From Bacteroidales bacterium (lineage in GTDB: Bacteria; Bacteroidota; Bacteroidia; Bacteroidales; F082), in contig JAFZKP010000031.1 of NCBI GenBank assembly GCA_017553625.1, positions 1 through 48,128 of the forward strand: 48,128 bases of DNA, written 5' to 3'. Positions within the stretch are counted from its first letter, which is position 1, and each line of letters starts with the position of its first letter. Positions 2,045-28,968 of this stretch are shown in pieces. Made by a program: the position numbers and the translations under genes. The notes beneath the pieces were generated by a model, which did not search any database, was not told where the DNA came from, and was given only the letters and a program-made list of their open reading frames with translations.

Positions 2045-2072
2045 GTAAAGACGTGCCATGGCGCGTCTCTAC
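2045..2072. repeat. 28-bp palindrome, family A, in the metK leader
   Basis: The arms GTAAAGACGTGCCA and TGGCGCGTCTCTAC are near-perfect inverted repeats (one mismatch, one G-U pair). The element matches three in-gene copies at 12129, 13841 and 27015 in its outer GTAGAGACG/CGTCTCTAC. It lies between the SAM-II aptamer and the metK start. An ATG at its centre (2058) opens an eight-codon reading frame ending at 2084, three bases before the metK ATG. Confidence 0.8.
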
Positions 2073-2087
2073 AGAAAAAATTAAATT

Positions 2088-26200: not shown

Positions 26201-26490
26201 CGTGGGTTTACAAACATAAAAATATCGGCAAACTCGTCGGAATGCCTGTTCCTGGCACCATGAGCAGCGTCACCTGGGAGACTTTGCAGGATAACACCTT
26301 GTATTTCGGCTTGCCGGTTGTCGGCTATCGTACCGAAGAAGGCAACTATCTGGAAAACAGCCAGTTGGAGCCAGACATCAAGGTTAAGAACACTCCCGAG
26401 AAGCTCGCTCAAGGCATCGATGAGCAGCTTGAAGCGGCTGTGAACGAACTTCTTAAAGAACTTGAAACGTTCAAATACTGGGGAAGGTAA
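23227..26490 (+). CDS. Tricorn-like S41 protease, periplasmic
   Basis: A large serine protease expected to degrade peptides in the periplasm. The 1087-residue protein has a signal peptide (MKKLFLALIMSFLTLVTFAQ), two beta-propellers with repeated FSPDGK-type blades (about 25-560), a Lys/Asp-rich spacer of roughly 25 residues (about 571-598), a helical C1 domain with LNVSHSGSGYR (the His of the tricorn triad, about 768), a PDZ domain (KVKAGDIIEKIDGVE) and the S41 core with DTRFNGGGRLHEDIE and GEANYSNAHGTPW (about 982). In archaeal tricorn the nucleophile lies in an SSSDGD segment; here the matching stretch is YSNAHG, so the nucleophile needs alignment. Its stop abuts the GH20 stop. Confidence 0.9.
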   Translation: MKKLFLALIMSFLTLVTFAQQPLWMRYNKISPKGDKIAFTYKGDIYVVDAEGGKATQLTTSASYDYCPVWSNDGKTIAFASDRNGNFDIYTVPVDGGVAKRVTTFSANETPLAFSPDDKEIYYSASIQKDAADAQFAAGWMTELYKVPVEGGRPQQVTAATVCSVSFDGDGESFLYYDRKGSENIWRKHQVSSVARDVVYYNAKEKSHKILTTNVGEDRDPIFMPDRKSFVYLSEPAGRNSMNVYMMTWPNLSESQKISDFQTYPVRFLSVANDGTLCYGYQGEIYTQKIGQIPQKVEIQIVNDQENRVERGKFGSASDLTITPDGNLIAFVSRGEVFVTSDEYQTTKQITHTPEAEADPSFSPDGKMLVYTSERDGYYNLYLAKMTRKEDLNFAYATLIEEESLFGDDGIERTYPSFSPDGKEIAFIENRKFLKVINLDSKKVRQITDGTQHYDSDAYPFDYKWSPDGKWFVLTLITNMRSPYSDVGIVSADGDMKIYNITNDGYITGAPSWALDGNAIIFGSNRYGMRSHASWGSQNDAFICFMNQDAYDKFMLSKEEYEILKKENEKSNDKGDKKDKKDDKKDKKDKKDEVKPIDIELDRLDERVVRLTPMSSKLSGAVLSKDGDKLYFLSSFEKGYDLWELDVREKSTKILKKLDGGSAQLVLNKKGDNIYVLSGGNLQKIETKGGKSTSIKYDNTMLLDRAAEREYMYNHIFLQESKRLFRRDHNGADFEQIKKDFYPFLAHINNNYDFAELMSEVLGELNVSHSGSGYRSGSSDGDATAQLGLLFDWNYEKDGLRIEEVLEYGPFDKKNSKVKAGDIIEKIDGVEITKDMDYYPLLNKKSGKKVLVSVYSPKSKQRWEEVVKPISRSAQNDLLYKRWIKRNAHVVDSLSNGRLGYVHIKSMGDASYRDVYADILGKYNLREGIVIDTRFNGGGRLHEDIEILFSGEKYLEQVVRDSVSCIMPSRRYVKPSIMIIGEANYSNAHGTPWVYKHKNIGKLVGMPVPGTMSSVTWETLQDNTLYFGLPVVGYRTEEGNYLENSQLEPDIKVKNTPEKLAQGIDEQLEAAVNELLKELETFKYWGR

Positions 26491-28968
26491 TTAATCAATA
26501 ATTATTTCATCAGCGAAAATCCAGGATCTGTAACCGGCGCCAGGTGTTCCTTCCGGAAGCGGTCCTGGGTTTTCTATTACTATCCGTAAATATCTGGTTT
26601 TCATGCCTTCCATGTCAAATGTCTCGGTGAAAACCTGATTTCCCGACGGTTGCAGTTTCTCGTTGATTTTGAATGTTTTAACCACCGTTTCAGGCGTGTT
26701 TGGCGCGGCATCAATAGGGAATGCGTACACTTTCACGGCGCTTGGCAGCATAATCCAGTCGAAAGGATTGGCTAAGAAATTGGTTTTTATTGTGTTAACT
26801 GTCTCTGCTTTCCCGAAATCAATCTCGATGTCGGCGTGTATGCCGCAGAATCCCTGCCAGTTGCCGTCTTTGTAGTCGTTGCTTCCAAGAACGCCGTTCA
26901 GCAAAGCGTCATCGCCGCCCCCGGAATATTCCGGACGGTAATTTCCCGCAGGACTGTTGAGGTTTTTGAGATGCCCCATGCCTTTGTGGAAAACGAAATG
27001 TTTTTCTGTATGTGGTAGGGACGTTTCCTGAAACGTCTCATTACAAAATGCCGTTACCGTACACGATCTCGTTATCTCAAACGGCTCTTCGTACAATTGA
27101 TAATCGTTTCCGTCGGTCGTGTAATAGATGTCCTTGTCGTCGAAAATGGTTTTCAAGACGATGACAGGTTTGCCGTTTTGCGATTCGCTGCTGATGAAGA
27201 CCTTGTTTCCGGCATCCAAGATGTCCTGCATTATCTTGTTGAAACGCGTCTCCACGATGTCGCGCGAGTAGGCTCGGCATTCCGAATCCCAGAGCCTGAT
27301 GTAGTCGTATTTCAGCTTTTTCAAAATCGGGATGAAGGCTTTTTCTAAATCTTTTGTCTTTTTAATTGCTTGAATGTCAGGACTTTGTAATGTTTTATAA
27401 TAATTCGCTTTCAAAATGTTTTTTGTCGCGGTGGTGTAGGAACGGTATGCTGCCACTATGGCGCAGTCGAGAAATTCGGTGTTTTCTTTTGTCTTTTCCT
27501 TGACGGAAATCAGGTTCTCGTAAAGCGCAAGTGCCTCTTTTTGACGTCTCTGGTTCTTTTCAATCGCCTCGTCGCTCACTTGGTTGGGGAAGAACTCCAG
27601 AAGCGGTTCATCGAGAGCGGAGAAAGGTTCTGCGCAATCTTTAAAGGCATTAACGTCAAGGCTTGCGCCAAGAAATTGTGTTGTAAACTTCTCATCAAAT
27701 CCAGTGCCATCACTGGGATTCCATGTCATCTCGGCGCACCACAGCATCGAGTGCCATGTGCTGCTGAATAGCGACTCGCCGTAGTCGTCCCATGCCGTGT
27801 TCATCAGACCTTTGGCGCCGCTTTTGTGTGCGTCGCGGGCGAAGTTGGCGATGTTATTGGTGTAGGTGTTGATGTCTGGAAACGTCGTGCTCCAGCAGCT
27901 CGCGCCCGAGGCGGCCCAGAACTCGTGTCCCGACTCCTTGAACGGCTTGAGCATCTCCGTGTAGTCGTCGCCGGCTCCGTAACTCCACACGATAAACTGC
28001 ATGTCGGCAGGCAATTTCTCAATCATTTTCGGGTTCTTCGCCACGATGTCGCCCCACATCATCACTGTCTTGCCGTGTTTTTCCAAAATCTGATACACTT
28101 TATTAATGTGTTCGCAGTAAGCCTTGTCTTTTCCTATCTTCTCGACGTATTCTTTGGCTTTGCCCGAGCCAAGCCCTTCAGTCTCATCGCAGTTGATGTT
28201 GAAAAACTTCGACTCGTAAGCGGGCGCTACTTCTGAAAACAAATCTTCCAAAAACTCGTATGTCTCAGGTTTTGACGGATCGAAATTGTATTTCGTGTCG
28301 GCAATGTCATCGTAAAAAGGAATTCTCAAAGTCTTCTCGGCATGCGCAAAACATTGCTGGTTGCCCATAAACTCAACGTGATATTGTTTTGCGTATTCCG
28401 TCAACTCCTTGATTTCCTGCGCTGTAAGCCCGTCGGTGGGGGCGATGTCGGGATGTGAGTCGAGCTTGAAGACGTGCTCGGTGTATAGCTGGAAAAAGTT
28501 CATCTTGTACGATGCCAGCGTGCGAATCTCCTTTTTGATGAAGTCCATCGTCGGGACGGGACCTCTACTGATGTCGTCCATCCAGCCGCGGTATTCGAGA
28601 GCAGGCCAGTCGGTGATGGTCATGCAAGGAATCCTGAATTCGTCTTTTTGTGTCGTAACCTGCTGATATTTAATAGCTTGGTTTAGGCTTTGTCTTGCAT
28701 AGAAAAGCCCTTGCTCTGTCATCGCCTGAAGTATGATTTTGCTTGGCGTGATTTTTATGATGTACGCCTGCAGCTTGTTCTCTTTGGCGGGAATATCCTT
28801 GACAATCTCAGTTTTTATCCGTTTCTCGTTTTTAGACAAATCGGATTTCCAATAAAACGCACCGTCTTGATATTCAACTTGTTGCGGATTTGGAATTATG
28901 CCTAAATCTTGTGAGTGCCCTATTGTCTGGAAGATGCATGCTGCGATGATGAGTAAGAGTTTTTTCAT
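26491..28968 (-). CDS. Glycoside hydrolase family 20 beta-N-acetylhexosaminidase, exported
   Basis: An 825-residue periplasmic or surface enzyme that releases terminal GlcNAc/GalNAc from glycans. It has a signal peptide (MKKLLLIIAACIFQTIGHSQ), a GH20b-type N-terminal domain (about 25-120), a TIM barrel with the Asp261-Glu262 catalytic pair in FNINCDETEGLG, a chitobiase-type module with YYTTDGNDY near residue 670, and a C-terminal discoidin-like (F5/8 C) carbohydrate-binding domain. The ATG at 28968 is chosen because the -7 element at 28983-28990 rules out the earlier in-frame start at 29004. A family A palindrome encodes NETFQETSLP in the chitobiase-type module. With the beta-mannosidase it suggests N-glycan use. 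Confidence 0.88.
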   Translation of the reverse strand: MKKLLLIIAACIFQTIGHSQDLGIIPNPQQVEYQDGAFYWKSDLSKNEKRIKTEIVKDIPAKENKLQAYIIKITPSKIILQAMTEQGLFYARQSLNQAIKYQQVTTQKDEFRIPCMTITDWPALEYRGWMDDISRGPVPTMDFIKKEIRTLASYKMNFFQLYTEHVFKLDSHPDIAPTDGLTAQEIKELTEYAKQYHVEFMGNQQCFAHAEKTLRIPFYDDIADTKYNFDPSKPETYEFLEDLFSEVAPAYESKFFNINCDETEGLGSGKAKEYVEKIGKDKAYCEHINKVYQILEKHGKTVMMWGDIVAKNPKMIEKLPADMQFIVWSYGAGDDYTEMLKPFKESGHEFWAASGASCWSTTFPDINTYTNNIANFARDAHKSGAKGLMNTAWDDYGESLFSSTWHSMLWCAEMTWNPSDGTGFDEKFTTQFLGASLDVNAFKDCAEPFSALDEPLLEFFPNQVSDEAIEKNQRRQKEALALYENLISVKEKTKENTEFLDCAIVAAYRSYTTATKNILKANYYKTLQSPDIQAIKKTKDLEKAFIPILKKLKYDYIRLWDSECRAYSRDIVETRFNKIMQDILDAGNKVFISSESQNGKPVIVLKTIFDDKDIYYTTDGNDYQLYEEPFEITRSCTVTAFCNETFQETSLPHTEKHFVFHKGMGHLKNLNSPAGNYRPEYSGGGDDALLNGVLGSNDYKDGNWQGFCGIHADIEIDFGKAETVNTIKTNFLANPFDWIMLPSAVKVYAFPIDAAPNTPETVVKTFKINEKLQPSGNQVFTETFDMEGMKTRYLRIVIENPGPLPEGTPGAGYRSWIFADEIIID
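27015..27044. repeat. 30-bp palindrome, family A, inside the GH20 gene
   Basis: The plus strand reads GTAGGGACGTTTC, CTG, then GAAACGTCTC-type sequence ending ATTAC. The central GACGTTTC/GAAACGTC arms are perfect. It is read in frame as part of NETFQETSLP in the GH20 protein, at a domain edge. Confidence 0.8.

Follow-up and report, generated by a model that had tools for sequence, protein, structure and literature searches.

Double-foot GTAG palindromes in protein genes of a Bacteroidales bacterium and their probable link to RAYT transposases

A stretch of 48,128 nucleotides from a Bacteroidales draft genome (assembly GCA_017553625.1, contig JAFZKP010000031.1, positions 1 to 48,128; hereafter the window) carries four related palindromes, one in the leader of metK and three within the genes of a beta-mannosidase, a GT4 glycosyltransferase and a GH20 hexosaminidase. 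What are these palindromes, what moves them, and how can they sit inside coding sequence? Their positions and hosts had been given in an initial annotation made from the letters of the window, and both held up: all four palindromes are real, Pfam assigns the hosts to GH2, GT4, GH20 and metK, and the three genic copies are in frame. We propose that the palindromes are double-foot GTAG repetitive extragenic palindromes (REPs), non-autonomous elements that are moved, or once were moved, by REP-associated tyrosine transposases (RAYTs), here the Y1/HUH single-strand transposases TnpAREP of subclass 2.4. We put the probability of this reading at about 0.85.

Copy number, anatomy and RAYT genes

The draft genome that contains the window (G000, the own genome; genomes and loci are cited by our G and L numbers) holds 56 copies with exact arms and no match to the reversed control, and a chance origin of the four palindromes was therefore ruled out. 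Within the genus, 36 genomes were examined, own genome included, and every one had exact copies, from 1 to 69 of them. Outside the genus, the palindrome occurred in 8 of 24 genomes of the same order. In a sample of the phylum it was found in 58 of 395 genomes and 37 of 171 genera, the reversed control being matched in one genome (G308). In a genome of another family, five identical palindromes lie within 551 bp (G426:C22:35019-35569).

The anatomy of the element was analyzed on 69 elements of the own genome, namely 50 of the 56 exact copies plus imperfect ones in the same stretches (70 before one nested element was dropped). The window copy at 27015-27044 was read directly from the sequence and is not among the 69, because an insertion in its foot made the pattern scan miss it. 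The core measured 28 bp in 60 elements, 29 bp in 8 and 27 bp in 1. Nine-base arms, GTAGAGACG/CGTCTCTAC, are common to the families, and the central decamer varies; a few centers predominate (CGCCATGGCA, TTTCAGGAAA, CACGGCCGTG, CGATTAATCG, ATGTGCACAT, CAAAATTTTG and two 11-base centers). Both feet, 5' GT[AG]G and 3' C[TC]AC, lie on one hairpin, as in the double-foot REPs of subclass 2.4. When three 28-mers were folded as single-stranded DNA, each formed a hairpin that included the two feet; for the commonest family, the fold of one strand contained a T.G pair and that of its complement a C.A mismatch. The base before the element was a pyrimidine in 59 of 69 cases and the base after it a purine in 54, yet these -1 and +1 bases did not covary as a stem, and no flank consensus extended beyond them. 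In 61 of 69 elements, one strand or both had an A directly after the CTAC foot, compared with 38.8 expected. The initial annotation had proposed a check for target duplications. Direct flank matches of 1-6 bases showed no clear excess over shuffles for the 69 elements, single five- and six-base matches being seen once each versus 0.2 and 0.1 expected.

RAYT genes were searched with a profile from an alignment of five proteins (A1), three of which carry the insertion and one of which (L367) is without the palindrome. The profile matched 233 of the 395 phylum genomes and 37 of 60 relatives, including two matches in the own genome. Among 74 RAYT loci, the palindrome was found inside the gene in 43, outside it within 250 bp in 35 and in either place in 52; the elements numbered 44 inside, 55 within 250 bp and 10 beyond. 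The best 30 loci of the phylum had 22 internal cases and 23 in either place, 30 loci of relatives had 14 and 18, and 14 loci chosen by place, some of them in regions selected for a palindrome known to lie nearby, had 7 and 11. Palindrome densities inside the gene and in its near flanks, each relative to the far flanks, were 25.2 and 23.5 for the phylum set, 18.1 and 25.6 for the relatives, and 10.6 and 21.7 for the place-chosen loci (11-26 times the outer flanks overall; computed before the span of L424 was corrected). Most internal copies lie 9 to 58 codons past the first HUH-like match. A position between the HUH and Y motifs was read in L368, L369 and L375, and RAYTs of G145 and G098 contain the palindrome in frame, directly behind the HUH motif. 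In G159, a genome with 41 copies, a RAYT is flanked by two identical palindromes (L307/L391). The subclass 2.4 motifs NH[IFV]H, WQ and YIxNNP were compared with A1 alone; the alignment has NHxH (DHVH in L307), WQ in five of five proteins and Y[IV]xxNP. In the phylum sample, RAYT matches at E<=1e-40 were obtained in 45 of 58 palindrome-bearing genomes versus 77 of 337 others (p 1.7e-15), and at E<=0.001 in 50 of 58 versus 183 of 337 (p 2.3e-6), relatedness being ignored in both tests.

Pfam PF01797 was also tried as a RAYT detector and rejected. In the own genome it matched a single Y1 gene (L016), and it gave no match in G005, G015, G017 and G032. With the five-RAYT profile, RAYTs were detected in G000, G005 and G015; G017 and G032 still had no match. 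The 99 loci taken from Pfam Y1_Tnp matches had the palindrome anywhere in the stretch in 7 cases and within 250 bp only in L307. Weak Pfam matches led to the palindrome-bearing RAYTs of G145, G098 and G159; others (L356-L367, L371-L374) were without the palindrome, and the hairpins beside 31 Pfam-hit Y1 genes showed nothing consistent.

Centers, RAYT lineages and reading frames

Copies at the same RAYT locus agreed in their center in 40 of 62 pairs, compared with a mean of 2.5 and a maximum of 9 after shuffling. On a RAYT tree of 48 rows (which omits 4 of the 52 element-bearing loci, L430, L434, L436 and L439, and uses a manually assigned label for L424), the 25 center labels needed 25 changes, where the minimum is 24. 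Shuffled labels needed 39.4 on average, and none of 200 shuffles was as low as 25. The centers CAAAATTTTG, CACGGCCGTG and CGCCATGGCA each formed one side of a branch; GGGCATGCCC, CGATTAATCG, CGCCGCGGCG and TTGCACGCAA did not. Two or more RAYTs with different centers were found within each of G002, G005, G016, G024 and G028. From the congruence with the tree and from these hosts with several RAYTs it follows that the center tracks the RAYT lineage and not the host. Because RAYT lineages have their own center inside and beside the gene, the center is probably a lineage-specific address and the feet a common cleavage guide. The 25 labels over 48 RAYTs form a natural set for testing a recognition code.

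In the own genome, 34 of the 69 copies are read in frame within 26 distinct stop-free stretches of at least 200 codons, a few of which are short and may not be genes. All 34 have 28-bp cores. The host open reading frames (ORFs) include RibD, AnmK, GH97, U32 peptidase, a PIF1-like helicase, GH3, MalQ, GH2, GT4 and an FtsX-type permease, and NqrA carries three copies. Reading phase 2 was used by 22 copies and phase 0 by 12; the phase that reads TAG is absent because the ORFs were chosen as stop-free. Among the listed copies of four genomes (G000, G015, G017 and G003, each covered wholly or in part), 28-bp cores were found 41 times in ORFs and 47 times outside, whereas 27- and 29-bp cores were found 0 and 27 times (p 1.2e-6). 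In annotation, the REP-encoded peptides (VETxxxxSLQ or CRDxxxxVST) should not be taken as conserved function.

The proposed mechanism can be outlined as follows. The REP would be a hairpin, mostly of 28 bp, with conserved feet GTAG.../...CTAC in shared arms and a variable self-complementary center. Transposition would proceed through a single-stranded hairpin intermediate, with cleavage guided by the feet and recognition specific for the center. Copies would land all over the genome, and those in coding sequence would survive where the frame stays open, as a 28-bp core allows in two of three phases, and where the loop in which the peptide presumably lies tolerates it. At an occupied site, the center of another REP family might take the place of the resident one.

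However, a number of observations weigh against this interpretation. Transposition itself is a step that we infer. The co-occurrence statistics ignore relatedness, and joint descent explains the congruence of centers and RAYT tree as well as recognition does. No RAYT match at E<=0.001 was obtained in 11 of the 36 palindrome-bearing genomes of the genus, many of these drafts being incomplete (G004, G007, G009, G013, G017, G023, G025, G026, G027, G032 and G035, with 1 to 26 copies each), nor in 8 of the 58 palindrome-bearing genomes of the phylum sample at the same threshold. At 22 of the 74 RAYT loci, no palindrome lies inside the gene or within 250 bp. A bias of the profile toward insertion-bearing RAYTs is possible because three of its five source proteins carry the insertion; the enrichment in the near flanks should be independent of this bias. 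In the own draft genome, which is 86.7% complete, no cognate RAYT was found for the commonest center, CGCCATGGCA. Of its two RAYTs, L428 has no palindrome within 1.5 kb and L436 has one within 250 bp, with center CGATGAATCG. For the copies fetched from G003 and G015, the numbers per center do not follow the RAYT found there. Regarding core length, the contrast between ORFs and other places contains few independent units, since the 29-bp copies come from two related subfamilies, and 2 of the 44 RAYT-internal copies are 29 bp long.

Corresponding sites and the host genes of the window

To compare occupied sites, the flanks of elements outside RAYT loci were matched, which yielded 16 sites occupied in at least two genomes (18 minus two self-matches). 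Pairs with different centers were found at 12 of the 16, partly unclean: L004/L469 is a length variant, the junctions of L471/L008 disagree, and the L012, NqrA and GT4 clusters mix neighboring copies. An equal distance to the aligned flank on both sides, with a center of another family, was seen in L215/L254 (MalQ), in L201/L054 and in L489/L190; for this last pair, one genome contains similar copies, so that its orthology is uncertain and the two may be paralogues. Agreement on one side with a differing center was seen in four more pairs (L473/L010, L053/L054, L484/L195 and L265/L275). L053 and L054 have the mutated foot CTGC in common despite their different centers, and L164 and L165 the mutated arm CGTCTTTAC. 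In the own genome, the pairs L195 3001/L212 3001 and L003 1501/L194 3001 have one flank in common over tens of bases and not the other.

Individual loops were followed through related genomes. In the MalQ loop before LLICGED, compared in ten genomes, the own genome, G011 and G032 have a palindrome with center CACGGCCGTG, and G015 has one with center TTTCCTGAAA at the same junction. G063 and G035 have an unrelated longer inverted repeat, and the site is empty in G026, G005, G017 and G006. At site 3 of NqrA (30 loci of the genus), the CGATTAATCG type was found in G000, G032, G026, G015 and G017 and the CACGGCCGTG type in G011, G005 and G063; at the remaining loci there is another kind of palindromic repeat, a set of short tandem repeats or no recognizable feature. 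In GT4, G026 and G011 have other palindromes elsewhere in the same loop. By eye, GH20 of G017 has an apparent decayed palindrome with another center at the corresponding place, and the place in the metK leader is occupied by palindromes with other centers in L053 and L058.

Other repeats were seen in the same loops. The NqrA loop contains a GGATTGCTTCGTTCCTCGCAATGACG-like repeat, which resembles CGTC-tagged REPs, in L235, L236, L237, L241, L245 and L246, and is filled by short tandem repeats in L238 and L242-L244. The GH2 loop of L051, L053, L057, L058 and L088 has instead a longer in-frame inverted repeat of the GTCATTTCGA...TCGAAATGAC type, the second half of which varies. The same type is also in frame in the MalQ loop of L256 and L257, with peptides like VISTEAKRNGEIS. 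A transposase for it was not found; TCATTTCGA motifs occurred in 2 of the 99 Pfam-hit Y1 loci.

Known centers differ in up to ten of ten bases, which makes stepwise mutation from one to another unlikely; such a place was either hit a second time or had its resident element exchanged. Under independent insertion, the differing centers would be separate events caused by different RAYTs in the same permissive loops, retained only if the protein can bear them, without any exchange; we give this nearly even odds. It accords with the occupation of the same loops by unrelated repeats (at NqrA site 3 by two REP centers, by the GGATTGCTTCGTTCCTCGCAATGACG type or by tandem repeats, and in GH2 and MalQ by the inverted repeats of some orthologues), with the GT4 insertions of G011 and G026 elsewhere in the loop, and with the empty MalQ sites. 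It accounts less well for three sites with equal junctions on both sides and four with equal junctions on one side, given that the flank consensus is only a pyrimidine at -1 and a purine at +1. Exchange in place is a more tentative idea. Since the feet are shared, a RAYT could cleave the REP that another family has left at a site and put a new one in the same spot, the feet being public and the center private, in a homing-like exchange of 28 bp. If this is true, new REPs go to sites where a REP has already proved harmless, in-frame ones such as that in malQ among them, the length stays constant at 28 bp, and equal junctions with different centers are explained. Sites that change their center make the spread of REPs without gene damage testable in close strains.

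The features of the window are collected in Table 1. Every window copy has at least one damaged arm, and the window scan found none with both arms perfect. The right arm of the GT4 copy differs by three transitions, in agreement with the earlier remark that this arm carries transitions only. Among named records, the GH2 gene has its nearest relatives in uncultured rumen and gut Bacteroidales. It had been stated that each genic copy adds about ten residues. This was not upheld because the loop of GT4 is 6 residues longer than in orthologues and that of GH20 about 2 longer than in most; for GH2, orthologue loops range from 9 shorter to 39 longer than the loop of the window, with no fixed gain. 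Insertion may have removed native residues, such residues may have been trimmed afterward, or the loops may have been different already.

Table 1. Palindromes assigned to double-foot REPs, with their host genes and neighbors in the window
Feature	Position	Strand	Arm-center-arm	Basis
SAM-II (S-adenosylmethionine) riboswitch aptamer, 39 bp upstream of the metK-leader REP	1947..2005	+		Rfam RF01726, 68.9 bits
Double-foot REP in metK leader, center TGCCATGGCG (CGCCATGGCA family)	2045..2072	.	GTAAAGACG-TGCCATGGCG-CGTCTCTAC	Sequence scan
metK (S-adenosylmethionine synthetase), downstream of REP	2088..3380	+		Pfam PF00438, PF02772, PF02773
GH2 beta-mannosidase with REP inside	10442..12904	+		Pfam; orthologues
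Double-foot REP in GH2 gene, center TTTCAAGAGA (decayed TTTCAGGAAA family), in-frame reading CRDVSRDVST	12129..12156	.	GTAGAGACG-TTTCAAGAGA-TGTCTCTAC	Scan, orthologues
GT4 glycosyltransferase with REP inside, +6 residues versus orthologues	12901..14058	-		Pfam; orthologues
Double-foot REP in GT4 gene, center CAAAATTTTG, in-frame reading SKNAKFCVST	13841..13868	.	GTAGAGACG-CAAAATTTTG-CATTTTTAC	Scan, orthologues
GH20 hexosaminidase with REP inside, about +2 residues versus most orthologues	26491..29004	-		Pfam; orthologues
Double-foot REP in GH20 gene, center TTTCCTGAAA, 28 bp plus 2-bp insertion in right foot	27015..27044	.	GTAGGGACG-TTTCCTGAAA-CGTCTCATTAC	Sequence, orthologues

The metK-leader copy, which sits between the riboswitch and the ATG at 2088, and the copies within nqrA, ribD and other genes would suit a selected module, kept by the host as an RNA signal or as a useful loop peptide. 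This is improbable: presence and center vary among orthologues at the compared sites, and the two reading phases yield unrelated peptides. Repeats of other kinds were also noted in the window. Intergenic arrays of AACTGANT-type octamers, direct and inverted, lie at 18718-18779, 32108-32206, 35871-35996 and 47193-47312, and at least seven copies of a tandem coding repeat, with a spacing of mostly 78 bp, lie at 6314-7001 within an ORF at 5836-7176.

Comparison with known systems

The initial annotation had likened the palindromes to those of Rickettsia. The likeness holds for dispersed palindromes that are in frame in many host genes; it fails for the GTAG feet at both ends, for the position in and beside genes of RAYT/TnpAREP tyrosine transposases and for the sequence itself. 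In the parts of the source that bear on this, RPE-4 and RPE-6 of R. conorii, two Rickettsia palindromic elements (RPEs), are CGTC-tagged at one end, and CGTC repeats show no association with transposase genes (PMC3733652). An RPE family unrelated to RAYTs is accordingly a poor explanation. Poorer still is a relic of another mobile element, for example a miniature inverted-repeat transposable element of a DDE transposase, which would likewise be a short, dispersed inverted repeat but should leave a target site duplication, where direct matches were no more frequent than in shuffles apart from the single five- and six-base ones, and the association is with Y1/HUH genes instead. Cyanobacteria are said to have small dispersed repeats that are very small and look mobile, reportedly the subject of work by Elhai and others in 2008.

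REPs with a GTAG tag and intragenic REPs have been described (Di Nocera 2013, PMC3733652). According to the passages available, those families resemble the present one in the GTAG tag, the short stem, the intragenic copies and the RAYT association; they differ in their hosts, which are Proteobacteria, Cyanobacteria, Chloroflexi and the PVC group, and in having an unpaired tag at one end, whereas here both feet pair. For RAYT groups 2 and 3, the relevant passages of another study report that the single-stranded REP is cleaved at CT or CA under guidance of GTAG and that strand transfer was shown (PMC8266576). The literature search returned, among the matches listed and with few subscription journals covered, no paper on how this family spread into genes of Bacteroidales or on center exchange, and no apparent repeat paper for the arm sequence.

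The closest system is that of TnpAREP subclass 2.4, which corresponds to RAYT group 4. The initial annotation knew of no described equivalent in Bacteroidota; in the passages at hand, however, double-foot REPs are defined for this subclass, are abundant in Bacteroidetes and Cyanobacteria, and are inserted in tnpAREP genes with the frame undisrupted (Quentin 2018, PMC6006769). A repeat that looked unexplained in Bacteroidota genomes is thus probably tied to a known transposase subclass. As far as those passages go, the likeness comprises the 5' GTAG and 3' CTAC feet on one hairpin, the occurrence in Bacteroidota, and copies beside tnpAREP and in frame inside it, between the HUH and Y motifs. 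Double-foot REPs and their in-frame insertion in tnpAREP are therefore known, and the exchange of centers is the new idea. Beyond the same passages, the present family has in-frame copies in 26 ordinary ORFs of a single genome, combines one nine-base arm with many RAYT-specific centers, and differs in its centers at corresponding sites.

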